Positions 9,417-22,293 of a DNA stretch of 64,000 nucleotides are shown one piece after another. This DNA is from Opitutaceae bacterium (GTDB lineage Bacteria; Verrucomicrobiota; Verrucomicrobiia; Opitutales; Opitutaceae). A model generated the notes under the pieces. That model was given only the letters and a program-made list of their open reading frames with translations, ran no database searches and had not been told where the DNA came from. Each line of letters opens with the position of its first letter. Positions within the stretch are counted from its first letter, which is position 1. The stretch is from positions 1 to 64,000 of the forward strand of contig JABTUS010000011.1 of NCBI GenBank assembly GCA_015075305.1, given 5' to 3'. A program made the position numbers and the translations under genes.

Positions 9417-12400
9417 CTATGAGCGAAGCTTCATCAGAAGATCCTTGGCCTCGACGGTGTCACCGACGCTGACGTTGAGCTCAGCGACAACACCTGAGAC
9501 AGGTGCGTAAACCGTTGTCTGCATCTTCATTGCCTCCATCATCAGGAGTTTGTCGCCCTTCGCGACCTTGGCTCCCAACGAGACGGACAGTGCCGCAATC
9601 AGGCCAGGAATGGGGGCCGCAAGCTGTAGCGGATCAGCAAGGTCGGCTTTCGGCTTGGATTTGCCTTTTACGGCGACCGATCGGTCCGAAATGCTGACCT
9701 CCCGAGACATACCGTTGAGGTCAAAATTTAGCGTGCGCCGGCCATCCTTGTCCGGATCTCCGATGCTGACGAGTCTGATGATCAGCACCTTGCCTTCCTC
9801 GATCTCAACGCTGATTTCCTCGCCCGGCTTGAGACCATAGAAGAAGGCGGGCGTTGGAAGCACGCTGACATTTCCAAATTCCCTTTGCTGTTTCTGGAAC
9901 TCAGCGAAAACCTGGGGATACATCAGGTGAGAATACACCTCGTCGGTAGTGAGCTCGCGGCGATATCTCTCACTGAGATCCCTGGAAATCTTCTCGAATT
10001 CCGCGGATGCCGTTGCGGCATTCGGCAGGGTGTAAGGTTTGCCGGCCTGAACGAGCGCATTCTGATACCTTGCCTTTGCATCCGTATAGCGGGCTCCACC
10101 AAGAATGGCCTTCCATACGGGGTCGGGCCAGCCTCCTTCCGGCCAGCCGAGCCCTCCCATAAGCATGTCGATCACGCTTTCGGGAAATGGCATGGAACCG
10201 GGTTCGAGATTCACGATGTCGGCAGGATTGATGCCTCGCGAGAAAAGGAACAGGGCGAGATCACCAACCACCTTGGAGGACGGGGTCACTTTGACGATGT
10301 CGCCAAAGAGGGAGTTAACCTCCGCATAGGTTCTGGCAATCTCCGGCCAGCGGTGCGACATGCCCATTGCCGCGGCCTGTTCCTTAAGATTGGTGTACTG
10401 GCCGCCGGGCATTTCGTGAAGATAAACCTCAGCCGAGCCCGTGCGCGGTGCCGTGTCGAAGGGTCGGTAGTATTCGCGAACCTGCTCCCAATAGTCGGAA
10501 AATGCGTTGGCTTTTTCGAGATCCAACCCGGTGTCGCGCGGTGTATTCTGGAGCGCAGCCACAATTGAATTGAGATTGGGCTGGGCCGTGCTTCCGCTCA
10601 TTGAGGCCAGAGCGAGGTCGACAACGTTCACACCTGCGTCCGCCGCCCGCAGTATGGACGCGGCGGTTGTTCCGCTTGTGTCGTGCGTGTGAAAGTGAAT
10701 CGGAATTCCGACCTCCTGGCGGAGGGTCCGGATCAGCTTCTCCGCCGCATAAGGTCGGCAAAGGCCAGCCATGTCCTTGATGGCTAGAATGTGTGCGCCC
10801 ATCTTCTCGAGCTCCTTGGCGAGACGGACGTAATAGGACAACGAATACTTGTCCCGGCGCGGATTCAGAATGTCGCCGGTGTAGCAGATTGCGGCCTCGC
10901 AGACTGCGTGGGTGGATCGCACGGCCTCCATCGCGCCGCGCAGGTTGGGGAGATAGTTCAGCGAGTCGAATATGCGGAAGATATCCATGCCGGCTGCCGC
11001 GGCGTGGCGCACGAAGCCCGTGACGACATGGTCGGGGTAGTTTGTGTATCCAACGGCGTTGGCTCCCCGTAGGAGCATCTGCAGGCAGATGTTCGGAACC
11101 CGCCGCCGAATTTCACGCAGGCGATCCCATGGGTCCTCATGGAGAAACCGCATTGCGGTGTCGAAGGTGGCGCCACCCCACATTTCGAGAGAGAATAGAT
11201 TGGGGAGGAAATGGGCGACGCCACTGGCGCAAGCCAGCAGATCATAGCTGCGGACACGCGTCGCCATCAGCGATTGGTGCGCGTCCCGAAAAGTCGTATC
11301 TGTTACAAGAAGCGCCTTCTGCCGCACTGTCCAATCCGCAAAGCCCTTGGCGCCGAGTTCGAGCAGTTTCTGACGCGTTCCGTCGGGAGGTGAAACTGAA
11401 TGATCGTAGGAGGGTGCGGCCGCGCTGGGAAGGGGTTTTTCGGGACGGTACCCTTTTGCGTGCGGGTTTCCATTGACGATGACATTGCCGAGAAAAGTAA
11501 GAAGCTTGGTGGCCCGATCCCGGCGCGGCTTGAACGAAAAGAGCTCCGGCGTGGTATCGATCAGCGAAGTCGTCGCCTGCCCGGATCTGAACGTCGGGTG
11601 GGCAATCACGTTCTCCAGGAACGGAATGTTGGTCTTGACGCCCCGGATGCGAAACTCGCTGAGGGCGCGACGGGCGCGATTCATTGCGATTTCGTAGCTC
11701 TGGCCGCTGGCGATCGCCTTTACGAGAAGGGAGTCGTAGAAGGGAGTGATGACTGCACCAGCGAAACCCATGGCTCCATCAAGACGGACGCCGAAACCGC
11801 CAGGCGAGCGATAGGCAAGGATGCGCCCGTAATCGGGGACGAACTTGTTTTCGGGGTCTTCAGTTGTGATGCGGCATTGGATCGCATAGCCATTGCGCGG
11901 GACCTGTGATTGCTGGGGCATGCCTACTTCTGGGGAGTGCAGCGAATACCCCTGTGCAATGAGGATCTGTGCCCGAACAAGATCGAGCCCGGTGATAACC
12001 TCAGTCACGGTGTGTTCAACCTGGATACGGGGGTTCATCTCGATGAAGAACCACTCGTGGCGGTCAAGGTCGTAGAGGAACTCGATTGTTCCAGCATTGT
12101 CGTAGCGTATTTCCTTGGCGATTCGCGCGGCAGCATCGCAAAGCTCGCGGATGACTTCAGTCGGCAGACCGTAGCTCGGGGCGACCTCGACCACTTTTTG
12201 ATGCCGTCTCTGAATGGAACAGTCACGTTCATGGAGGTGTATCACGTTGCCGTGTTTGTCGCCGAGCACCTGCACCTCGATGTGCTTCGCACGAGAGATG
12301 AATTTCTCCAAAAAGACGGCGGGATTTCCGAATGCACGTTCGGCCTCGCCCTGGGCTTCGTCGAGCAGGTTGTCGAGATCGGCTGGCTTGTTAACCACCC

Positions 12401-12956
12401 GCATGCCACGCCCTCCACCGCCAAACGCAGCCTTGATGATCAGGGGAAACCCAATCGATTTTGCGATCCTGAGGGCCTCTGAGCGTTCTGCGACTGGTGC
12501 GTTTGTGCCCGGTAGGACTGGCACCCCGATCCTTTGAGCAAGCGCACGGGCTGCCGTCTTGTCACCCATCATTGCGAGCAGTTCCGGGCGCGGTCCGACA
12601 AAAACAATCCCAGCGGTTTCGCATGCTCTCGCAAAGTCGGCATTCTCCGAAAGGAAACCGTAGCCAGGGTGAATCGCATTGACGCCCTTTTCCTTGGCGA
12701 TCGCGACAATACTCTCAACGTCGAGGTACGCGGCCACCGGGCCCTTTCCTCTTCCAATGAGGTATGCCTCATCCGCCTTGTACCGATGGATGCTGAACCG
12801 ATCTTCGTGCGCAAAAACGGCCACAGTCCGCATCCCTAATTCAGTACCGGCGCGAAAAATCCTCACCGCAATCTCGCTGCGATTTGCAGCCAAGAGCTTC
12901 AGGAAATTGCGTGGCTTGGAGGTCTGTGCGGAACTCTGGGTGGATGAAACGCTCAT
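9417..12956 (-). CDS. pyc: Pyruvate carboxylase (single-chain)
   Basis: A 1179-residue biotin enzyme that makes oxaloacetate from pyruvate, bicarbonate and ATP (anaplerosis). Domains in order: biotin carboxylase at about 10-470 (glycine-rich ATP loop FGGGGRGMRVV, EMNPRIQVEH), carboxyltransferase TIM barrel at about 530-800 (TDTTFRDAHQSLMATR), PYC/OADA domain to about 1010, and a biotinyl domain whose carrier lysine lies in MEAMKMQT near residue 1145. I start at the ATG at 12956 (MSVSSTQSS), since the frame upstream to 13238 has no family similarity and the standard length is 1150-1180. It stands alone, convergent with prmB and divergent from the 13325 operon. Confidence 0.95.
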   Translation of the reverse strand: MSVSSTQSSAQTSKPRNFLKLLAANRSEIAVRIFRAGTELGMRTVAVFAHEDRFSIHRYKADEAYLIGRGKGPVAAYLDVESIVAIAKEKGVNAIHPGYGFLSENADFARACETAGIVFVGPRPELLAMMGDKTAARALAQRIGVPVLPGTNAPVAERSEALRIAKSIGFPLIIKAAFGGGGRGMRVVNKPADLDNLLDEAQGEAERAFGNPAVFLEKFISRAKHIEVQVLGDKHGNVIHLHERDCSIQRRHQKVVEVAPSYGLPTEVIRELCDAAARIAKEIRYDNAGTIEFLYDLDRHEWFFIEMNPRIQVEHTVTEVITGLDLVRAQILIAQGYSLHSPEVGMPQQSQVPRNGYAIQCRITTEDPENKFVPDYGRILAYRSPGGFGVRLDGAMGFAGAVITPFYDSLLVKAIASGQSYEIAMNRARRALSEFRIRGVKTNIPFLENVIAHPTFRSGQATTSLIDTTPELFSFKPRRDRATKLLTFLGNVIVNGNPHAKGYRPEKPLPSAAAPSYDHSVSPPDGTRQKLLELGAKGFADWTVRQKALLVTDTTFRDAHQSLMATRVRSYDLLACASGVAHFLPNLFSLEMWGGATFDTAMRFLHEDPWDRLREIRRRVPNICLQMLLRGANAVGYTNYPDHVVTGFVRHAAAAGMDIFRIFDSLNYLPNLRGAMEAVRSTHAVCEAAICYTGDILNPRRDKYSLSYYVRLAKELEKMGAHILAIKDMAGLCRPYAAEKLIRTLRQEVGIPIHFHTHDTSGTTAASILRAADAGVNVVDLALASMSGSTAQPNLNSIVAALQNTPRDTGLDLEKANAFSDYWEQVREYYRPFDTAPRTGSAEVYLHEMPGGQYTNLKEQAAAMGMSHRWPEIARTYAEVNSLFGDIVKVTPSSKVVGDLALFLFSRGINPADIVNLEPGSMPFPESVIDMLMGGLGWPEGGWPDPVWKAILGGARYTDAKARYQNALVQAGKPYTLPNAATASAEFEKISRDLSERYRRELTTDEVYSHLMYPQVFAEFQKQQREFGNVSVLPTPAFFYGLKPGEEISVEIEEGKVLIIRLVSIGDPDKDGRRTLNFDLNGMSREVSISDRSVAVKGKSKPKADLADPLQLAAPIPGLIAALSVSLGAKVAKGDKLLMMEAMKMQTTVYAPVSGVVAELNVSVGDTVEAKDLLMKLRS

Positions 12957-13324
12957 GTAATCGCTGCAAGTCGTGACAAGAGCGCACGCTTGATGCAATG
13001 GCGTTTGCACGACAAGAAATTGGCGGATGCTGCCGCGCGTGTGGATTCGATCATACTCGCGTCGAAATCGACAATCCGTAGGTTTACGCGTCATTCTCAT
13101 CGCTTTCGGACGGCCCGAAGTGGAGAGAAGCATGGCAAACTCATATGGCTGCTGAGGCAAAGGCATGGTTGGGCGAGGCATGAGGACATGTGCGAATCGA
13201 GTGCATGAATGACACTCCAGCCCATTTTGCCCATGCATCGCTTGACACCGCCTCGAAATCCACGCAGAAACTGGACGCCGTAAGCGTCCCGCTTGTTGAA
13301 GTGTGAATTTGAGGGAAATTCCAT
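12957..13324. other. Intergenic region between pyc and the signalling operon
   Basis: These 368 bases separate two divergent transcription units. I see no convincing gene: the open frames here are short, without family similarity, and mostly the upstream extension of the pyc frame. Apart from a TTGACA box and a GAGGG ribosome-binding site near the right end (separate entry), I recognise no operator, RNA gene or repeat. It is also where base composition begins to fall from pyc toward the AT-richer block. Confidence 0.5.
13242..13315 (+). promoter_or_regulatory. Possible promoter and ribosome-binding site of the receiver/kinase operon
   Basis: A perfect TTGACA occurs at 13242-13247, but the sequence 16-18 bases further on (around CAGAAA) is a poor -10 box, so the promoter call is weak. 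GAGGG at 13311-13315 sits 9 bases before the TTG at 13325 and is a good Shine-Dalgarno site. It supports that TTG as the start of the first gene. Confidence 0.35.
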
Positions 13325-14476
13325 TTGCTGCAGACGGAAACCTTACGCAGACCCTTGAACACCAGCGCTGCGGAAAAGCCCCTAGTTTTGGTAGTGGATG
13401 ACGAATACGGCCCTAGGGAGTCGATCGCTTTTACATTGTCGGCGGATTTTTCAGTCGACACTGCAGAGCGGGCTATGGAGGCATTATCTAAGCTAAGAGC
13501 TCGAAGCTATGCAGCGATCGTGTTAGACATCCGAATGCCGGAAATGGATGGTATCCGGGCCTTGGAGGAAATACGCAAGATTGATCGAGAAGTCTCGGTC
13601 ATCATGTTGACCGGCTATGGCACGCTCGCAACCGCCCAACAGGCCATCTTGGGAGGGGCCAATCAATACCTGAGAAAACCCCCCGATATTCACGAACTGA
13701 TAGCTGCCGTAAAAAATAATGCGGCACAGACCATCGAACGGCGCCACCACGCTAGGATGTCTCGGGAAGCATTGGACATGAATGCCGCGCTTCGCCGCGA
13801 AATTTCCGAAAAGCAGCCTCATGTTTGGCAAGCAAGAGCGGCAGTCGAGTTGGTCCATGATCTAGCGAATCCATTGACGGTCATGATCGGATACGCCGGC
13901 TTGTTGGTAGAAGAAGCCGAAGATATCGCTCGTCAACACCCCGAGCGTGCAGATAAGCTGAAGGGATATTCGGTTATTGTTGAAAAGGCGGCTGAATATT
14001 GCCACCATCTCGCCGACAACTGGCGGCAGGCGTCCCGAAAAACCACTGAATTTACTCAGATCGATCTAGTTTCTGTGGTAAAAGAGGTTAAACATGTAAT
14101 CTTCTTCGGTAACGGCGCGCTTGAAGTAACCGGGGACGATAATGCGTGGATCAAGGGCGCTCGATTTGAGCTCGCACGGGTATTCCAGAACCTATTCAAG
14201 AATGCTTTAGAAGCCAATGCAACCAGAATTGAAATATCCATAAAGACCTTAGACGAGAATGTCGACGTTATGATAGTCGACAATGGAACTGGAATGGACG
14301 CAGAAACGATGAGAAATGCTCTAAGAGGTGGCTTTACAACTAAGGTAAATGGTACGGGACTTGGATTATCAATCTGTCGCCATCTCTTAGGAGCTCATGG
14401 TGCAACGCTTACACTCGACTCGCTCCCTGCAAAAGGAACAACCTCACACTTGGTGTTCCCCGCTGTACCCGAATAG
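13325..14476 (+). CDS. Receiver-histidine kinase hybrid without output domain
   Basis: A 383-residue cytoplasmic two-component protein. Residues 20-135 form a complete receiver: acidic pair D25/D26, phosphoacceptor D68 in VLDIRMPEMDG, T96 and K118. After a short helix comes a HisKA-type H-box with H178 (LVHDLANPLT). The ATPase domain is intact: N-box NLFKNALEAN, G1 box VDNGTGMD, and G2 box GTGLGLSICR. There is no DNA-binding domain and no membrane segment. It is the first of five closely spaced genes and probably takes phosphate from, or exchanges it with, the kinases encoded downstream. The TTG start is supported by GAGGG 9 bases upstream. GC is already lower than in pyc. Confidence 0.85.
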   Translation: MLQTETLRRPLNTSAAEKPLVLVVDDEYGPRESIAFTLSADFSVDTAERAMEALSKLRARSYAAIVLDIRMPEMDGIRALEEIRKIDREVSVIMLTGYGTLATAQQAILGGANQYLRKPPDIHELIAAVKNNAAQTIERRHHARMSREALDMNAALRREISEKQPHVWQARAAVELVHDLANPLTVMIGYAGLLVEEAEDIARQHPERADKLKGYSVIVEKAAEYCHHLADNWRQASRKTTEFTQIDLVSVVKEVKHVIFFGNGALEVTGDDNAWIKGARFELARVFQNLFKNALEANATRIEISIKTLDENVDVMIVDNGTGMDAETMRNALRGGFTTKVNGTGLGLSICRHLLGAHGATLTLDSLPAKGTTSHLVFPAVPE

Positions 14477-14520
14477 ATCCCGCTCATGACTCGCCTATAA
14501 GACGAGTACAGGACTCACAA

Positions 14521-15726
14521 ATGAAGCGGCGCAGAGTCAAGATTACAGGCATAGGTCCCGTTACTCCATTGGGGATCGGGCGCTCATCATTTCTATCTGC
14601 CTTGCTCAGCGGAGAAAGCAAGGTCAGAAGTATCAAACGCTTCATTGAGGAGGCTGGACCATTTATTGCAGCCGAAGTCAGTGATTTCTCACCTGAGCAT
14701 CTTCTACACCAACCTATCCTCAGAAAAATGCCCCGTCATACTCAGTTTGCACTGGTAGCAGTCATGCAAGCACTCGCAGATGCAAAAATTGGTCTTGGAG
14801 AATTGGCATCATCGAAGATCGGCCTACACGTCGGAGCAGCGCTCATGGATTTTGGTTCAATAAATAGGACCATTGACTTGATTTCGCGGAAAGGACCGAT
14901 AGCTGGGCTACCATCAGCTATTGCATCTGCTTCACCCAGCTCAATCGCGTCTGCAATTGCACAATTCCTAAAGATGCAAAGCGTTGCATCGATGACCTAC
15001 CAAAGTGCATGTTGCTCGGGAATAGATGCCATAGGACATGGATTGCAAGCTGTGCTTGGAAGAGAAGTAGACATTGCTATTTGTGGCGGTACTGAAGCAC
15101 CTCTGTTCTTACATCCTATGCTAGAACTGAGAATGGCTGGTCTTTCATCTTCCAACCAATACCTCCCGGAAAATCAATGTCGTCCGTTCGATCTTTGGCG
15201 AACGACTGGTGCAATTGGAGAAGGGAGCTGCATGCTCGTACTTGAACCCAATGAAAGCCCACGTAAAGCATACGCATACATCGATGGATATGCCTCAGCG
15301 GGTGACTATAAAGAAACTCCTTGCAGCGGCTTGTTCCATGCTATGAAAGAGTGCCTATCCTCAGCAGCAATTGCGCCATCAGAGGTCGAAGCGATCAGCG
15401 CCTGGGGTCCCGGCCATCGCGAGATTGATAAGCAAGAAGCCCGAGCAATTAGATTGCTATTCGAGAGTTCTATCGCCAATATTCCTGTCTATTCCATCAA
15501 AGGCGCAATCGGAAATCCCCTGGGTGCAGCAGGGGCAATACAAGCAGGCGCCGCTGCCTGTTGTATTGATGCCGCGGTAATACCACCGACTGTCAACTGG
15601 AGTTTTCGGGACCCTGACTGCAATCTAAATCTTAGTTCGGTGCCTCGGGCGGTGGGTCATAAGAATTGTCTTGTCAACACGCATGGTATATCAGGAGCGA
15701 ATTCATGTTTGTTGATAAGTCAATAA
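14521..15726 (+). CDS. Beta-ketoacyl synthase-fold protein lacking both catalytic histidines
   Basis: A 401-residue FabF-type thiolase-fold protein. The nucleophile elbow is present (YQSACCSG, C164), as is the conserved lysine K327. The two histidines needed for decarboxylative condensation are replaced: the NAHGTST position reads SAWGPGH (W295), and the GHxxGAAG position reads GNPLGAAG (N332). The gating loop GFGGTN reads GISGAN. Chain-length factors lose the cysteine; this protein does the reverse. It may be an acyl-thioester binder or sensor, a non-decarboxylating acyltransferase, or a partner of another ketosynthase. No acyl carrier protein, ketoreductase or acyltransferase lies nearby. 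The gene is 44 bases after the receiver-kinase and overlaps the next gene by 22 bases. Its base composition is AT-richer than the flanking housekeeping genes. Confidence 0.8.
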   Translation: MKRRRVKITGIGPVTPLGIGRSSFLSALLSGESKVRSIKRFIEEAGPFIAAEVSDFSPEHLLHQPILRKMPRHTQFALVAVMQALADAKIGLGELASSKIGLHVGAALMDFGSINRTIDLISRKGPIAGLPSAIASASPSSIASAIAQFLKMQSVASMTYQSACCSGIDAIGHGLQAVLGREVDIAICGGTEAPLFLHPMLELRMAGLSSSNQYLPENQCRPFDLWRTTGAIGEGSCMLVLEPNESPRKAYAYIDGYASAGDYKETPCSGLFHAMKECLSSAAIAPSEVEAISAWGPGHREIDKQEARAIRLLFESSIANIPVYSIKGAIGNPLGAAGAIQAGAAACCIDAAVIPPTVNWSFRDPDCNLNLSSVPRAVGHKNCLVNTHGISGANSCLLISQ

Positions 15727-17714
15727 TAGAAGCTCCCACTGTAGTTGCGGCCGTCCTAGCGCTTTATATTGGGGGCCTAGCCTTCCACTCTAACCCTAAT
15801 AGGCTGATCAATCGGTACTTTCTTTCATTATCCGTTCATGTTTCTTTCTGGCTCGCTTCTCTCTTCTTAGCACTCACCGCCAATCCAGGCTTGATCTGGA
15901 TGAGAGCGAGCTGCGCTATCGCCGGCCTAATTCCCCTACACCTCTTCTTATTGAGAGAAGCCGCTGCCTCAAACCCAGGTCCACCAAAGTGCAGCGCACG
16001 ACATTTGGCAGGCTGGCTTGTAGTTGGCCTGCTCATGTGCATTCTACCAACCACCTACCAATTTATTCCAGCACACTCAACTGCTTCCCATAGGATTTAC
16101 GGCAGCGCTTTCTATATATACTTTCTACTCCAGGTCGCGTCCTATGCTGAACTATGTCGTGGTACTATTGTCAAGCTAAGAGCACTCAAAGGAATAGCGA
16201 ACATTGAACTCCAAATACTCCTATTTGGTGGATGCTTGACAGGAGCTGCTATATTGCTCCTTATGCTTATTGGCATTGCGACAGAAAGTCGAACTTATAT
16301 CCGAATACAACCGATTATAATAGTTTCATTTTATGCATTGACCGTCGCATCTATCACTACGCATAAGATTTTCGATGCGTCATTCTTGCTTCAGTTAGCT
16401 TGTAGGAGATTCATCCTTATTGTTATCGTTTCAGGTATCGGATATATCTCCGACCAGCTTGTCCGCCTAGTGATTAGTGAGCCATTTGCTTTCGCAATAA
16501 CAACGGCAGCGATTCTTGGCTTTGCCTATCGACTAGATTCATTTCTTGGTTCATTATTCTCCCCAAGTTTTCTATATACTAGAATTCGAGAGGCCGTTCA
16601 TTTGAGAAGAGAAGGTGGACAAGACTTCGAGACACAAATTTTTCAATATGAAACAATACTACGAGAATGGTCCCAATCTACTTGCGCACAGTTGGGTGTC
16701 ATTTGTGAGGACAATCAATTTCGGCAAAATGGCTTTCAGCTTGGGAAGGCTGAACTGGAGGAACTCCAACGCATTCACTGGGCAACACCCGAACGCCTCA
16801 GTCGCGAGAGAACTAGCGACCGGCGAGGCTCACTGGCGAAATTCCTTACTAAATCGGCCATCGCTGCGCTTGTCCATGTTGAAGGCAAGACACTACAAAT
16901 CACTATTGCTTTAGGAGTGCGTGATTCAGGCCGCCCCTATGTACATCATGAAATTGAATTTCTTATCGATACTGCTGTCCAGATTGAGGAATCACTCGCT
17001 AGATCTTATTTAGCACTCAAAACAAAAAGAGCTGAACGCCTCGCTATCTTGGGCATATTGGGAGCAGGAATCGCACATGAAATTCGCAATCCGCTTGTTG
17101 CAATGAAGGCCTTGGTACAACTCCTACCTTCGAAATATGCAGAATCCCAATTTCGAGAACTCTTCTTTCCCCTAATGTCAGGAGAAATTGAACGAATTGA
17201 GAGACTAACGGAACAGCTACTAGATTTAGCCTCTCCGAGAAAATATGATATTAAATCTTTTCCAATCAGTGATCTAATCGAATCATCGTTACCACTGATA
17301 CGCTACCAAGCAGATAAAGATAGCGTGGAAATTCGGTTGACAGAAAGCAGTTCTAAAATCTGTATTGATGTGGATTCAAGTTCCTTTAGGCAGGTTTTTA
17401 TTAACCTTTGTTTGAACGCAATTCAAGCGCAAGCCCAGCAATCAAGGCATCGCTGGGTTGAGATCGAATATACAATTCGTCTAGGTGGCGCTGAGCTCGT
17501 GATCAAAGACAACGGCCCGGGAATTAGGCCAGAAGCCCGTGAACGTTTGTTTGAGACCTTCAACACGACTAAGTCTACCGGCTTCGGTTTAGGGCTTGCT
17601 CTGAGTAGTAATATTCTTTCGGATCAGGGCGCAAGACTCTCTGTTGATCCATATCTAGAAGGCAAGGGAGCAGTATTTCGTGTCTTCTTTCCATGCAAAG
17701 TACAGTTAGATTAG
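15705..17714 (+). CDS. Multi-pass membrane sensor histidine kinase
   Basis: A 669-residue kinase. Residues 10 to about 290 hold roughly nine hydrophobic segments (seven or more membrane passes with very short loops), like the N-terminal membrane sensor of 7TM kinases and PrsK-type kinases. A GAF-like linker region at about 300-440 precedes an orthodox kinase core: H458 in IAHEIRNPL, N-box NLCLNAIQAQ, G1 box KDNGPGI, and G2 box GFGLGLALSS. It should autophosphorylate in response to a membrane or membrane-soluble signal. I start it at the ATG at 15705; an upstream TTG at 15666 is less likely. It overlaps the ketosynthase-like gene by 22 bases and the next gene by 22 bases. Single 60-base lines that I counted are about 35-38% GC, far below the rest of the window. 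Confidence 0.82.
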   Translation: MFVDKSIIEAPTVVAAVLALYIGGLAFHSNPNRLINRYFLSLSVHVSFWLASLFLALTANPGLIWMRASCAIAGLIPLHLFLLREAAASNPGPPKCSARHLAGWLVVGLLMCILPTTYQFIPAHSTASHRIYGSAFYIYFLLQVASYAELCRGTIVKLRALKGIANIELQILLFGGCLTGAAILLLMLIGIATESRTYIRIQPIIIVSFYALTVASITTHKIFDASFLLQLACRRFILIVIVSGIGYISDQLVRLVISEPFAFAITTAAILGFAYRLDSFLGSLFSPSFLYTRIREAVHLRREGGQDFETQIFQYETILREWSQSTCAQLGVICEDNQFRQNGFQLGKAELEELQRIHWATPERLSRERTSDRRGSLAKFLTKSAIAALVHVEGKTLQITIALGVRDSGRPYVHHEIEFLIDTAVQIEESLARSYLALKTKRAERLAILGILGAGIAHEIRNPLVAMKALVQLLPSKYAESQFRELFFPLMSGEIERIERLTEQLLDLASPRKYDIKSFPISDLIESSLPLIRYQADKDSVEIRLTESSSKICIDVDSSSFRQVFINLCLNAIQAQAQQSRHRWVEIEYTIRLGGAELVIKDNGPGIRPEARERLFETFNTTKSTGFGLGLALSSNILSDQGARLSVDPYLEGKGAVFRVFFPCKVQLD

Positions 17715-19483
17715 CTTCCCGAAATCCTTCCCTTTTGAAGTCATGGCGGGCCCAACTGCCTGAAGGCTTAGGTGGCTTTGGTGATGAATTCGGTTCACCC
17801 CAGGTGGGGGCTAGTATACCAACCCTTTATATCGTCGACGAGTTACTGTGGGAGGCGGTGCTTCCTACAATCCGTTTCGCTTCGAGTGTCATAGTAGTTG
17901 TCGGCGAGCCTTACTCCCGTAGGTTTGAGGATCTAAGATCTGATCAACGGATCACCTTCTCCTTCACATACACCGAAAGTACATGCCGGTTGCGAGAAAT
18001 GGTCCCGATCTTCCTAAGGCTCTTAGAACAGGGTTCCCGTGAAGAAATTCTGATTTCAAAGTTGCGACAGGCCAATTCTAATACTCCCAACTCTAGAGTT
18101 AGCAGTGTTAGCGCCTTCGATGAGTTCGATATGGAGGGCCTGCTGGACGGTATTTTGTCGAGCGTTAGGTCGCGAGAAGAATTGCTTCGTGAATTTAGAC
18201 GCACTATCAGGCGAGTTCTGGGAGTCTCCTATGTCGAATTCTATTTGCGAGGAGGTTCCGGATTCTCTTCAGATCGGGGCTCAGCTCCTCTATCTGACGT
18301 AGATCCATTGATCGGGTTTCTAGCGAGAAACCCAGTTGTTTTGGATGGGATAACTTGGACCGGCCCAGTTGATCCTATCGCAGAGTTGAGCGCACGCAAT
18401 CATCTGGCATTGTGGCATGCAAGATTGATTGTCCCTATTCATGATAACGGCCTCTTGCATGGCTTGATAGTTTGTGGTGTGCGAGATGACGGCCATCCAT
18501 TTGATGTCAATGAAAAGGTACGCGCGCATACCCTCGCTAAATGTTTCAAGCATTGTCTGATATGCTGTCGAGATTTTGAGCGCCTAATTGAACGCGATAA
18601 CCGAATTAGTCAGTTTGCTGGATATCTTCCCAACTCCCTCATGCTTTACGAGAATGAAGAGCCGGAAAGAACAATACCGTTAGCTGTGAGAGCATTGATC
18701 GGGCAGGTTCGGAGAGAACGAGATACAAGGAGAGTTTACCCGACTGAAGACCAACCGCTGAGAATAGGCGCTGGGTTTGTTCCGGGGATCAAGGGCACTT
18801 GGGCATCTTGGGACGAAGCTGCTGTAGAGCTAGATTTCCAGGCAGCAAATGCTAAAAGGGAGCGAATTGCAACGCTGAGGGATATTGCGCTCATTCTAAA
18901 TCACGAAATTGGCAATGCGCTGATTTCTCTCTCGACATTTTCGAAGATAAATAGTTCGTTACTCAATCTTGATACGCTGAGACACATTGTGGAGGGAGAC
19001 GTAGATCGCCTACGGGAGTTGAATAGCGAATTGGCGCAATTGGCGTCAATTAGCGATGTGAGTCCACAATTGACGGACATCGTGCCCCTCATTCGTACCA
19101 TCGCGCAGGAGTCGTCCATCGATTTTGATCTCTCTACTGATTCTTTTTCATTATTCGTTGTGCCGCATCTGATAGAATTCGCACTCAACGCAATAATCGC
19201 TGGCGTCCTTGTGAATCTGCGCGAGAACAGTTCTCGCCACAAGCTTGCAATTCAATTGCGATCTGCTGGTGAAGGACCCAATGCTCTTGCACTGATATCA
19301 ATTCGAGGTAAGGATATGGAGCTTGAAGGGATTCTGCCTGAGCGCCCAGCTAATGCGCCCCCAACTCAGGGGCGCATCGGGCTATTTATTGCGCGTGAAA
19401 TTATTAGATTGCATCGAGGATCTATTCATGCAGGCCCTGGGTTTGAGGGACAGGAAATATTGATTTCACTACACCAATGGTAG
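17693..19483 (+). CDS. Pseudo-receiver/GAF/degenerate histidine kinase
   Basis: A 596-residue soluble protein. Residues 1-110 resemble a receiver that lacks the acidic pair (ASRNPS instead of DD) and the conserved lysine, although an aspartate (D49, LYIVDE) sits near the phosphoacceptor position. Residues 150-300 look like a GAF sensor domain. An H-box-like motif follows with H404 (LILNHEIGNALISL). The C-terminal ATPase domain is eroded: the N-box reads EFALNAIIAG, the G1 box has no DxGxG (IRGKDMEL), and only a G2-like RIGLFIAREI remains. It may be a phosphotransfer or dimerisation partner and not an active kinase. The gene overlaps its neighbours by 22 and 7 bases. Confidence 0.68.
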   Translation: MQSTVRLASRNPSLLKSWRAQLPEGLGGFGDEFGSPQVGASIPTLYIVDELLWEAVLPTIRFASSVIVVVGEPYSRRFEDLRSDQRITFSFTYTESTCRLREMVPIFLRLLEQGSREEILISKLRQANSNTPNSRVSSVSAFDEFDMEGLLDGILSSVRSREELLREFRRTIRRVLGVSYVEFYLRGGSGFSSDRGSAPLSDVDPLIGFLARNPVVLDGITWTGPVDPIAELSARNHLALWHARLIVPIHDNGLLHGLIVCGVRDDGHPFDVNEKVRAHTLAKCFKHCLICCRDFERLIERDNRISQFAGYLPNSLMLYENEEPERTIPLAVRALIGQVRRERDTRRVYPTEDQPLRIGAGFVPGIKGTWASWDEAAVELDFQAANAKRERIATLRDIALILNHEIGNALISLSTFSKINSSLLNLDTLRHIVEGDVDRLRELNSELAQLASISDVSPQLTDIVPLIRTIAQESSIDFDLSTDSFSLFVVPHLIEFALNAIIAGVLVNLRENSSRHKLAIQLRSAGEGPNALALISIRGKDMELEGILPERPANAPPTQGRIGLFIAREIIRLHRGSIHAGPGFEGQEILISLHQW

Positions 19484-20313
19484 AGAACTGCCTCGCGAAC
19501 CGCCTGCTATATATGATCGCAGGGAATCAATGTCTACCCGCTTCACTCATCTTTGGATCTCAAATCAAAGGATTCGCAGGCGATTTGTCGGATTTCGATT
19601 TTCAGATTATAGCGAACAGACATGCATGGCTAAACCTCCGGCCTTGGATTTCTACTGTATTTAAAAACCATTTGGAGGAATTGTCGGAACGACCTGCCTT
19701 AGGCGGTGCTCGGAAATTTGAACTGCGTAGTCGATTGGGGTCTGCAGATATAGTGTTTGTTTCACAATTTAGAATGGAGCTAGCGTGCGCCTGCGTGGCT
19801 TTTGATCTTCATAAGGCGTCCAAATGGTTAGCCGACATGTTGAGCCCGCTAGTACTAATAATTGGTTCTGGATTTAGGATAATTAAGGGTGGCCACAGAT
19901 GGGAGCTATTTTATAGAAGGATTGTTCGGGAAATTTCTATTCCCAGACTTTCGGACAATGAAGTTGAGTATTTGTCTCGCATCGCATACAACGATGGACT
20001 ATGGGCAGTTGATAAGTGCCGCAACGGGGAAAGTTTTTCGGCGATTCGAATACTATTTGCAAGCTGTCTAAACATCAATTTACGTCTACTGAACGAGCTT
20101 CGCCTACGTCGGGCCGAAAAGCCAACTTATGATGGTAGAAGAGCTGAGCTGGTTCTACCTTTGGACCAATTACAGCTCATGCTCAGGCTACCAAAAGGAT
20201 TCGGAATCGAAGAGCAGCTGATTCTATGCGAATTGTGTAAAGATGCAACGGGTATATTGAGAACAAAACTGCTTTTGCATGGTTCTTCACGGAATCGTGT
20301 GGGTAGCGCCTGA
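19477..20313 (+). CDS. Nucleotidyltransferase-fold (MNT/Pol-beta type) protein, 3' end replaced by an insertion sequence
   Basis: The frame encodes 278 residues. The N-terminus has the polymerase-beta nucleotidyltransferase signature: LIFGSQIKG (G27/S28) followed by LSDFDFQII with D39 and D41, and a third acidic residue at D91 (GSADIVFV). This suggests transfer of a nucleotide from NTP to a protein, RNA or small molecule; the target cannot be read. The remainder is helical and unfamiliar. The last ten or so codons (from about 20281) lie inside the terminal sequence of the insertion-sequence remnant, so the native C-terminus is lost or altered. It overlaps the preceding gene by 7 bases, so it belongs to the same operon. 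Confidence 0.65.
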   Translation: MVENCLANRLLYMIAGNQCLPASLIFGSQIKGFAGDLSDFDFQIIANRHAWLNLRPWISTVFKNHLEELSERPALGGARKFELRSRLGSADIVFVSQFRMELACACVAFDLHKASKWLADMLSPLVLIIGSGFRIIKGGHRWELFYRRIVREISIPRLSDNEVEYLSRIAYNDGLWAVDKCRNGESFSAIRILFASCLNINLRLLNELRLRRAEKPTYDGRRAELVLPLDQLQLMLRLPKGFGIEEQLILCELCKDATGILRTKLLLHGSSRNRVGSA

Positions 20314-21030
20314 GGGAAGAAGGGGCGCGAGGTCGATCTTGCCACAGGAAAAAGAGGATGCGGGCGCGGTAGTTTTCGAAGCGGCGGAAGCCGCGGGCAT
20401 CGGCCTTGATGGCTTGGATCTTGGAGTTGAAGCCCTCGGTGAGGGCATTGGTGATCGGGTGCTGGAAGTGCGTCAGAAGATTCACCAGATGGCTTTTGAG
20501 GGTGCGGGCCACGGCCATCACCTTCGGCAAACGGCTGCGCTTGACGGTGCGGTACCACTGGGAGAAGAAGCGTTCGCCGCTGGCCGTGTCCGGCTGCCTC
20601 CAGAACTCCAGCATCTGCTCCTTGTACAACCAGGCCCGGGAGGTCTTCAGGTTCATTTCCAGCAGCTCGGCGCAGCTGGCCTGATGCTTTTCCTTCACGA
20701 TGCCATGCAGCCAAGGATACCGAGTCTGCTTGAGGGTCTCGTCGCCCTTTTCGGCCAGCTTGGCCGCCTCCTGCCGGCGGCTCTGGTCGACCGACTCGTT
20801 GAGGTGCTTGGAAACATGGAAAAGGTCATGTACGATCGCAGCCTGCGGAGCGGCGATCCGGGTGGCATTCGGACGCCGTTTGGCGAATTGCTGAAGAATC
20901 CCCGCGGGCACAGGTGCAATTGGGGCCTGCGAAAGAACGTCTCGACCCGTGATGGTTTTGTGCGGGGGCTGTCGTGCGGAGTCAACGAGCTCACGAATGT
21001 GCCGTACGTGGGAGTGGGCCCGTTCCAATG
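20281..21030 (-). mobile_element. Truncated ISL3-family insertion sequence
   Basis: The element carries the C-terminal two thirds of an ISL3-type transposase on the minus strand. Its recognisable outer end begins at GGTTCTTCACGG (20281), next to the ancestral stop of the transposase, as usual for ISL3 elements. The other end is missing: the transposase N-terminus and its inverted repeat are gone, and argD begins only about 45 bases further on. The exact right border is uncertain. I see no matching inverted repeat in the window and cannot identify a target-site duplication. Confidence 0.75.
20287..21028 (-). pseudogene. ISL3-family transposase, 5'-truncated and frameshifted
   Basis: Two ISL3 signatures are clear: PQAAIVHDLFHVSKHLNE with QSRRQEA after it, and TNALTEGFNSKIQAIK followed by GFRRFENYRARILFF. 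The first 150-200 residues, including the zinc ribbon, helix-turn-helix and first catalytic acid, are absent. Near the 3' end, after RILFF, a one-base insertion in a T/C run shifts the frame. Read without it, the end becomes CGKIDLAPLLPSGATHTIP and a stop at 20287-20289, exactly the kind of end this family has. With the insertion, the frame runs on into the nucleotidyltransferase gene to 20183. It is inactive. Confidence 0.82.
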
Positions 21031-21075
21031 CACATTCCCTGCCTCCCTCCCATCTTGGACAGCCTTGCGATCAAA

Positions 21076-22293
21076 TCAAGACTTGGACTTGAAAACGCAT
21101 TGGAGAGCTTGAATCGATAGGGAGAGTTCTTCAGGGGTCGCGGTCAGGGGAGGGAGGAGGCGAATCACGTTTCCTCCGGCGGAGGGGACCAGCAGTCCGG
21201 CCTCGCGCAGGGCGGTTACGTAGGGAGACGGGTCGCTTGTGAGCTGGAGTCCCACCAGGTAGCCGTAGCCACGCACTCCGGTGATCTGGCTGGAAAAATC
21301 CGCGGCGAGTGCCTTCAAGTCGGCGATCCAGGCCACGCAATTCAGCCGCACTCGCTCCATCAGGCCTTCGCGCTCGATCACATCGAGCACCGCGAGCCCC
21401 GCGGCACAGGCGAGCGGCGTGCCGCCGAACGTAGATCCGTGCGATCCGGGTTGAAAGAGTTCGGCCGATTTCTCGCCGACCCAGATGGCGCCGATGGGGA
21501 ACCCACCGCCCAGGCCCTTCGCCATGCCAATGGCGTCGGGGCGTATGCCAGCGTGCTCGAACGCAAAAAATGCGCCGGTCCTTCCGACGCCACACTGCAC
21601 TTCATCCAGCATCAGGAGCAGGTTGCGCTGGTCGCAAAGCCTGCGGATTCCACGGAGGAATTCAGGAGTGCACGCATGCACGCCTCCTTCGCCCTGGATT
21701 GTCTCAAGGAATATCGCCGCAGTATGATCGCCAACGAGCGACTCAAAAGTTTCCAGCTTGTTGAGTTCACCAAAGGCGAAGCCCGGCACCAGCGGGCGGT
21801 AGCCCTTCTGGATCTTCTCCTGCGGGGTTGCACTCATCCCGCCGAAGGTGCGTCCGTGAAACGCCTGCTTCGCCGCGATGACATGAAAAATCCGGCCTTC
21901 CTCTCCTCCGGCCTTCTTCATGCCGTGCAGGCGCGCAAGCTTGAGCAGGCCTTCGTTGGCCTCCGCTCCGCTGTTGCAGAAAAAGACGCGACCGGGGCCC
22001 GCGTAGCCGATCAGCCGGCGCGCCAGCTCCGCCTGATTCGGATTCCGAAACAGATTGCTCGTGTGAATCAGTTCCGCAGCCTGGCGCTGCACGGCCGAAA
22101 CCCAGTGCGGGTGACAGTGCCCGAGGGCGCTGACGGCGATGCCCGACGTGAAATCCAGATACGCGTTGCCCTGGTCATCCCAAACGCGCGCCCCGCGGCC
22201 GCGCACCAGCGTGAGCGCAGCGCGCGCATAGTTCTTGAGAACATGCGCATCATAGAGATCGGCGGTTGAGGTGCGGACAACGGTGGGTTGCAT
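21076..22293 (-). CDS. argD: Acetylornithine aminotransferase
   Basis: A 405-residue class III PLP aminotransferase that converts N-acetylglutamate semialdehyde and glutamate to N-acetylornithine in arginine synthesis. Visible marks are DFTSGIAVSALGHCHP near the N-terminus, NSGAEANEGLLKLAR, LDEVQCGVGRTG, and the PLP lysine in AMGMAKGLGGGFPIGA (read here as IGMAKGLGGG). I start at the ATG at 22293 (MQPTVVRTS); the open frame continues upstream but overlaps the intergenic space after argB. It lies 61 bases downstream of argB in the same direction, so the two are probably co-transcribed. Its 3' end is only about 45 bases from the insertion-sequence remnant. Confidence 0.94.
   Translation of the reverse strand: MQPTVVRTSTADLYDAHVLKNYARAALTLVRGRGARVWDDQGNAYLDFTSGIAVSALGHCHPHWVSAVQRQAAELIHTSNLFRNPNQAELARRLIGYAGPGRVFFCNSGAEANEGLLKLARLHGMKKAGGEEGRIFHVIAAKQAFHGRTFGGMSATPQEKIQKGYRPLVPGFAFGELNKLETFESLVGDHTAAIFLETIQGEGGVHACTPEFLRGIRRLCDQRNLLLMLDEVQCGVGRTGAFFAFEHAGIRPDAIGMAKGLGGGFPIGAIWVGEKSAELFQPGSHGSTFGGTPLACAAGLAVLDVIEREGLMERVRLNCVAWIADLKALAADFSSQITGVRGYGYLVGLQLTSDPSPYVTALREAGLLVPSAGGNVIRLLPPLTATPEELSLSIQALQCVFKSKS

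Follow-up and report, generated by a model that had tools for sequence, protein, structure and literature searches.

What could three histidine-kinase proteins, a ketosynthase-fold protein and a nucleotidyltransferase be doing in a single operon? The question is raised by positions 13,325 to 20,313 of the window, by which we mean the whole 64,000-nucleotide stretch that was analysed (contig JABTUS010000011.1 of the Opitutaceae bacterium assembly GCA_015075305.1). We find that the five genes, called A to E here, form a real operon, and that an older cluster containing A, B, C and D is widespread in Verrucomicrobiota. Judged by its residues, the ketosynthase of both (gene B) is an altered enzyme. 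Gene content, synteny, residue losses, sigma-54-like sites and the coupling of B to E lead us to read the operon as the Opitutaceae version of this widespread cluster: a lipid-responsive multi-kinase relay in which B would bind an acyl ligand. We hold this reading tentatively, with a probability of roughly 0.4.

Five genes form a conserved operon in Opitutaceae

The operon consists of the following genes.

Gene A, 13325..14476, plus strand: soluble protein of 383 amino acids with receiver, HisKA and HATPase parts
Gene B, 14521..15726, plus strand: FabF-fold ketosynthase of 401 amino acids, with Cys164 kept and Trp295 and Asn332 at the catalytic His sites
Gene C, 15666..17714 (alternative ATG at 15705), plus strand: membrane histidine kinase with about seven hydrophobic segments and an intact kinase core
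Gene D, 17693..19483, plus strand: receiver-like domain, GAF, PAS-like part and kinase-type fold, with phospho-His404 kept and the N-box and G1 residues lost
Gene E, 19477..20313, plus strand: two-domain Pol-beta-type nucleotidyltransferase of 278 amino acids

A gap of 44 bases separates A from B, and the genes that follow overlap by 22 bases (B and C, counted from the ATG at 15705), 22 bases (C and D) and 7 bases (D and E). An earlier reading of the locus, made from the sequence only, had taken this spacing to mean that the five genes were built as a unit. Comparison with relatives bears this out. The family repeats the same gene order and tight spacing, which confirms that the operon is real and beyond chance. 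With start codons chosen by script, 29 of 54 loci have a C-D overlap of exactly 22 bases. Genes C and D overlap or are separated by no more than 60 bases in 51 of 54 pairs, and genes D and E in 51 of 58.

Pfam identified Response_reg, HisKA (26.5 bits, just below the cut-off of 26.9) and HATPase_c in A, and HisKA and HATPase_c in C. In B, the N- and C-terminal ketoacyl-synt matches (101.6 and 63.8 bits) are both above cut-off and span the whole protein. The sole signals in D and E are sub-threshold matches to GAF (20.3 bits, cut-off 22.4) and to Pol-beta (15.7 bits, cut-off 26.9), respectively. Pfam detected no DNA-binding response regulator among the five genes, in agreement with the sequence-only reading. 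The intact kinases A and C are as in a canonical two-component system, but the Opitutaceae operon lacks the DNA-binding response regulator of such a system.

Co-occurrence was surveyed in 57 relatives from the family, in a phylum sample of 387 Verrucomicrobiota genomes, and in 60 loci from 59 genomes that were recovered by searching GTDB contigs with an alignment of D. The same GTDB search with a single D sequence as query found no relative. Among the 57 relatives, A occurs in 17, D in 16, the operon-type ketosynthase in 16 and E in 15; operon-type ketosynthases were defined by an E-value of 1.1e-107 or better, and the next group appears only at 4.7e-54, leaving a wide gap. Every one of the 16 genomes with D carries A, and 15 of them carry both B and E; the exception, G013, has neither. 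The seventeenth genome with A (G036) has A and B together on one short contig. All five genes are present in 44 of the 60 GTDB loci, which runs counter to the failure of co-occurrence that the sequence-only reading had named as grounds for abandoning it; another 14 loci are interrupted by contig ends. Four genomes from a single genus (G117, G164, G201 and G276) have E on the opposite strand, between A and B.

B and E travel together. Locus L093 (strain EW11) lacks both although the flanking DNA is present, and L103 holds a D fragment and E with different DNA upstream. The D tree groups G013 with EW11 in a single clade (support 100/99), so B and E were apparently lost together, once. Within the phylum sample, E was found in 15 of 387 genomes, all of them Opitutaceae, and the identical 15 carry an Opitutaceae-type B.

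An older cluster is widespread in Verrucomicrobiota

We used a ketosynthase alignment to find relatives beyond Opitutaceae, with searches confined to the phylum Verrucomicrobiota. Ketosynthase scores in the 387 genomes split in two: 57 genomes at 1e-115 or better, followed by FabF-type enzymes. The count of 57 was set just before the gap (next match 8e-109), and divergent members below it could be missed. All 40 of these genomes that belong neither to Opitutaceae nor to group f30 were retrieved; an earlier ketosynthase search had found eight non-Opitutaceae genomes, six of which were examined (G301 and G324 were left out). In total, 46 loci outside Opitutaceae were mapped, and they come from many families.

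The common layout outside Opitutaceae has A and a FadL-type channel gene on one strand, and B, C, D and often an NtrC-type regulator gene on the other. The complete arrangement (A< FadL< B> C> D>) is found in 29 of the 46 loci. Where enough flanking DNA is available, 38 of 39 loci have A and 31 of 39 have FadL; C is found in all 44 loci and D in 43 of 44. Of 44 loci, 18 encode a full NtrC-type sigma-54 regulator and 13 encode a shorter relative, the latter count including four f30 receiver proteins that are not directly behind D. These FadL and regulator labels come from BLAST comparisons to a few references, with Pfam run on two FadL proteins and three regulator relatives. Pfam confirmed PF03349 (FadL) in the two channel proteins tested (1.7e-58 and 2.2e-61) and a receiver-sigma-54-Fis architecture in one regulator. 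The L149 regulator has been reduced to a receiver and a Fis domain, and the L145 regulator to a Fis domain of 70 residues.

The sequence-only reading had proposed that co-occurrence be scored outside Opitutaceae. There, A, B, C and D are conserved together with FadL, but the five-gene set was not found: E is missing, with no E-like gene labelled in any of the 46 loci. The older cluster predates the Opitutaceae family and is widespread in Verrucomicrobiota. Because the unit outside the family often includes a sigma-54 regulator, the Opitutaceae operon without DNA-binding output looks derived. No PF03349 match is present in the window's genome, and 5 of the 17 genomes having operon genes contain one, all at 1e-27 to 1e-31. 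We also considered an orphan orthologue of the cluster regulator in Opitutaceae and rejected it. Only generic NtrC relatives were found, with at most 47% identity among the matches listed; most full-length cluster regulators are 52-62% identical, and two are lower, at 44% and 35%.

This distribution bears on the possibility that unrelated kinase and metabolic genes are neighbours by accident. Genes for kinases and for ketosynthases are each common. However, synteny in 46 loci of many families, overlapping reading frames and a ketosynthase triad that is never complete (described below) already contradict an accidental grouping, and we consider it extremely improbable.

Searches of an open-access library, read as listings and the openings of abstracts, showed no description of such a cluster, matching the statement in the sequence-only reading that no system of this content was known. 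The cluster is apparently undescribed, and it appears to be a phosphorelay that has an altered enzyme among its conserved components. The best NCBIfam names for C from the window (171.6 bits) and for C, D and the regulator outside Opitutaceae are AtoS or AtoC, regulators of acetoacetate metabolism by NCBIfam naming, and many outside loci share a sigma-54 output with that system. All scores nevertheless fall far under the equivalog cut-offs (348.5 of 646; 465.1 of 714), that of C from the window included. The cluster further differs from AtoS-AtoC in bringing a ketosynthase and FadL together with three kinase proteins at a single locus, and the Opitutaceae operon has no regulator.

Some loci depart from the common layout. 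In L144, L145, L154 and L160, a 70-residue open frame behind D retains only the Fis-type DNA-binding end of the regulator, as Pfam showed for L145, and the phospho-His of A is Arg there. In the f30 loci L108-L110, L112 and L113, a lantibiotic-dehydratase-like family (Pfam on L108) lies beside A, replacing FadL's side. A FAD-linked oxidase family (FAD_binding_4 in the two members tested) adjoins A in 16 outside loci, for example at L145:12318-13919.

Sigma-54-like sites precede 15 of 33 FadL genes

Sites resembling -24/-12 elements were scored against a consensus with hand-set weights at four thresholds, so that each site is a consensus match and each promoter predicted. At a score of at least 8.2, a site is present in the 200 bases upstream of 15 of 33 FadL genes versus 2 of 277 other genes from the same loci. 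Outside Opitutaceae, A is preceded by such a site in 1 of 42 cases and B in 2 of 46. Of the 15 FadL sites, nine begin 58-70 bases ahead of the chosen start codon and the others 32-104 bases ahead of it. Lowering the threshold to 7.4 gives 20 of 33 FadL genes versus 26 of 277 controls. The Fisher p-value for the enrichment, 1e-14, overstates independence, since the loci share descent; in addition, L160 has its FadL gene split in two and contributes it twice to the count. In the wider FadL-B intergenic region, sites occur in 20 of 46 loci with shuffle p-values of up to 0.05. None of 46 Opitutaceae operons has a site before gene A at a score of 8.2. The sites before FadL make FadL and the A gene behind it look like targets of the cluster's own regulator outside Opitutaceae.

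The identity of the channel also informs the possible cue. According to an excerpt of PMC9329746, E. coli FadL imports long-chain fatty acids, and E. coli fadL is controlled by FadR, ArcA, OmpR and RybB. The outside gene beside A is like FadL/TodX in matching PF03349, in the two proteins tested, and unlike it in having a predicted sigma-54-like promoter and kinase and ketosynthase neighbours. The sequence-only reading had guessed at a lipid- or acyl-thioester-sensing or defence-like role, and FadL supports the lipid part of that guess.

Ketosynthase B is altered at its catalytic residues

The description of B as a ketosynthase-fold protein holds for the fold. In addition to the Pfam matches, B aligns end to end with FabF from the PDB. 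It does not extend to a normal enzyme. The nucleophile Cys164 is kept in every row of the 15-, 46- and 47-row alignments, and Lys327 is kept as well. B from the window has Cys-Trp-Asn (Cys164, Trp295 and Asn332) in place of Cys-His-His. Both catalytic His residues are replaced in all aligned Opitutaceae rows, the first of them by Trp throughout. Outside Opitutaceae, the first site is His in 37 of 46 rows, Tyr in 5 and Asn in 4, and the f30 members are without this His. At the second site, 37 of 47 rows have Asn, 4 each have Cys and His, and 2 have Ser. The two His residues occur together in 0 of 47 B rows versus 6 of 6 FabF controls taken from Verrucomicrobiota. An unrooted tree places Opitutaceae B proteins on one side of a branch (100/100) and FabF on another (100/100), and B reaches only 221.2 of the 493.75 bits set for the curated fabF model TIGR03150. 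B thus resembles FabF/KAS II in full-length alignment, fold family and Cys, and differs from it in scoring under the fabF cut-off and in never having Cys-His-His. On this residue evidence, B is an altered ketosynthase and not a normal FabF enzyme.

Whether B retains a catalytic role separates our reading from two others. Most outside B proteins have Cys-His-Asn, which is a working KAS III triad in the excerpted text of PMC4549310. Such a B might make a lipophilic signal that FadL would pass through the outer membrane, C and D would sense, and the NtrC-type protein would answer. Pyrone and dialkylresorcinol signals are made by ketosynthase-like enzymes, and a synthase adjoining its sensor is common in quorum-sensing layouts. 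Opitutaceae B, however, is without both His residues and f30 B without the first, and our home-made acyl-carrier motif is absent from window positions 12000-22000 and present in only 3 of 106 loci, in each case in a frame of 292-528 amino acids. Signal synthesis by B is the main rival to the lipid-responsive relay; it is most plausible for the Cys-His-Asn lineages, and overall we consider it unlikely.

Next in rank is the proposal that B has remained a biosynthetic ketosynthase serving an envelope lipid, so that B would be the output, with the kinases and E regulating or decorating the lipid. The retained Cys and Lys327 fit this proposal, as does the FAD-linked oxidase family beside A; FAD-linked oxidases of this kind include ether-lipid enzymes. 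The loss of catalytic His speaks against it, and none of the neighbour families that were identified is a further recurrent fatty-acid synthesis gene. We regard continued lipid synthesis by B as improbable. A biosynthetic cluster as such was rejected on the scarcity of the acyl-carrier motif. A type II polyketide pair of ketosynthase and chain-length factor was also discarded: the operon has a single ketosynthase gene whose Cys is kept (the chain-length factor loses it), and the home-made pattern found no acyl-carrier-like motif at window positions 12000-22000.

In Opitutaceae, D is most likely a phosphotransfer protein derived from a kinase

A and C each possess the phospho-His and ATP site of an intact kinase. 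All 47 Opitutaceae rows of C retain the residues that were checked. In A, the receiver and kinase residues checked are canonical across 46 Opitutaceae rows, one X and one gap excepted. D is different. The phospho-His of D is kept in 54 of 54 Opitutaceae and 42 of 42 outside rows, and its receiver-like domain keeps an Asp in 53 of 54 and 42 of 42, respectively. The N-box Asn and the G1 Asp are each found in 0 of 54 Opitutaceae rows versus 42 of 42 outside. A structural model of D (predicted local distance difference test, pLDDT, 84.4; predicted template modelling score, pTM, 0.47) matches phytochrome-type and other histidine kinases. The degenerate kinase of the sequence-only reading is one with its phospho-His kept and its ATP-site residues lost.

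From these residue patterns, Opitutaceae D is most likely a phosphotransfer protein derived from a kinase. Since its ATP-site residues are lost and its His is kept, D most likely acts as a phosphate carrier between A or C and an unlinked response regulator. A precedent is ChpT, whose kinase-like fold, in the excerpted account of PMC3433190, keeps the phospho-His with an unusable ATP site, and which shuttles phosphate and does not autophosphorylate. Opitutaceae D is like ChpT in keeping the phospho-His with the ATP-site residues lost. It is unlike ChpT in its added receiver-like, GAF and PAS-like parts and in its descent from a HisKA/HATPase kinase, which other lineages keep intact. With the gene still encoding an intact kinase in sister lineages, Opitutaceae provide a natural experiment in the conversion of a kinase to a phosphotransfer protein.

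Several variations concern A and C. In seven outside loci (L127, L129, L143-L145, L154 and L160), the decaying kinase is A, not D: the phospho-His of A is Arg. Within Opitutaceae, A is conserved at 57-87% identity versus about 24-63% for B to E, as if A had more partners. L118 (G310) lacks A at the usual position; behind E it has instead a distant receiver-kinase, 29% identical to A. In L022, L023, L024 and L026 (G009, G001, G004 and G006), a second membrane kinase that is 27-30% identical to C is found upstream of A, beside the operon and in divergent orientation.

E is a nucleotidyltransferase tied to B

The model of E is confident (mean pLDDT 92.1) and has two domains, confirming the Pol-beta-type nucleotidyltransferase fold that the sequence-only reading had assigned. 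E is closest to LinB (Z 16.5, root-mean-square deviation 3.3, 242 aligned) and then to ANT(6)-Ib (Z 13.4, root-mean-square deviation 4.3, 236 aligned). Residues G27, D39 and D41 are invariant and D91 is nearly so in 56 rows, giving the GS...DxD...D pattern of the fold.

The structural neighbours suggest that E could be a nucleotidyltransferase that inactivates antibiotics or serves defence, within an operon for drug-sensing resistance or for defence. Both E domains superpose on LinB/ANT(6), but identity is only about 11-14%, there is no antibiotic link, and E strictly follows B in the 387-genome sample. Sequence searches with E returned no significant match past the first nucleotidyltransferase motifs (best E-value 0.0016). 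The MntA model for type VII toxin-antitoxin systems scored 13.9 of 60 bits, and PADLOC gave weak partial matches for A (best 0.0014) and none for B to E. We rejected a defence or toxin-antitoxin role on the basis of these tests, leaving the defence part of the earlier guess without support, and a resistance or defence system is in our view very unlikely. It is poorly supported, as is the accidental grouping discussed above.

The strict tie of E to B across genomes suggests that E acts on B or on the ligand of B. One genome (G002) carries E twice; the additional copy stands alone on a different contig (L168:8563-9504), among genes named by eye as cell-envelope-type, and explained nothing.

A model for the lipid-responsive relay

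Under the lipid-responsive relay that we favour, the likely older form of the cluster would work through its linked regulator. Membrane kinase C, soluble kinase D and receiver-kinase A would act on the NtrC-type protein, which would in turn activate the FadL-type channel gene and the A gene behind it through the predicted sigma-54 promoter. B would hold an acyl group or acyl-thioester on its invariant Cys and report lipid supply to the kinases, with no chain elongation. Acyl chains are the suggested cue because FadL lies beside A and the ketosynthase has kept its Cys. The Opitutaceae locus no longer has FadL, the sigma-54 site or the linked regulator; its B has lost both catalytic His residues, its D has lost the ATP-site residues, and E has joined. 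C and A are the likely phosphate sources there. Phosphate would move from C or A to the receiver of A, then to D and then to an unlinked response regulator, which is the simplest route given that A has the operon's only canonical receiver. E probably nucleotidylates B, its ligand or a partner.

A more specific version would have B acylated on the invariant Cys with condensation blocked, its acylation state setting the multi-kinase relay, and in Opitutaceae E marking or resetting B or the acyl ligand while D passes phosphate. We see this version as possible, though doubtful.

Several findings weigh against a lipid-responsive relay. FadL-type proteins carry other hydrophobic compounds too. FadL is missing in 8 of the 39 loci with enough flank, four f30 loci among them, and a regulator relative of either kind was not found in 13 of 44 outside loci. 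A cannot supply phosphate everywhere, since its phospho-His is lost in the seven outside loci named above. The clade without B and E (G013 and EW11) keeps A, C and D, so B is not needed for retention of the kinases. Finally, outside B proteins with the Cys-His-Asn triad of KAS III may be active enzymes. Taken as a whole, the earlier interpretation is partly supported.

Across much of Verrucomicrobiota, the cluster shows a conserved link that ties histidine kinases to an altered lipid-condensing enzyme; the predicted target is a FadL-type channel whose control is sigma-54-like. If B does sense acyl chains, this would be an unfamiliar bacterial way to read lipid supply, and a retired lipid enzyme may serve as a sensor part in these bacteria. 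The residue patterns at Cys164 of B and His404 of D are open to concrete tests.

A transposase remnant behind the operon

Directly behind E, at 20183-21028 on the minus strand, lies an ISL3-type transposase remnant whose Pfam match starts at profile position 69, its front part missing. The reading frame of the remnant overlaps the 3' end of E, and the Pfam match stops short of E. We rejected truncation of E by the ISL3 element: E aligns with its relatives to near its C-terminus. In L025, a near relative, a gene judged by eye to be transposase-like likewise follows E.

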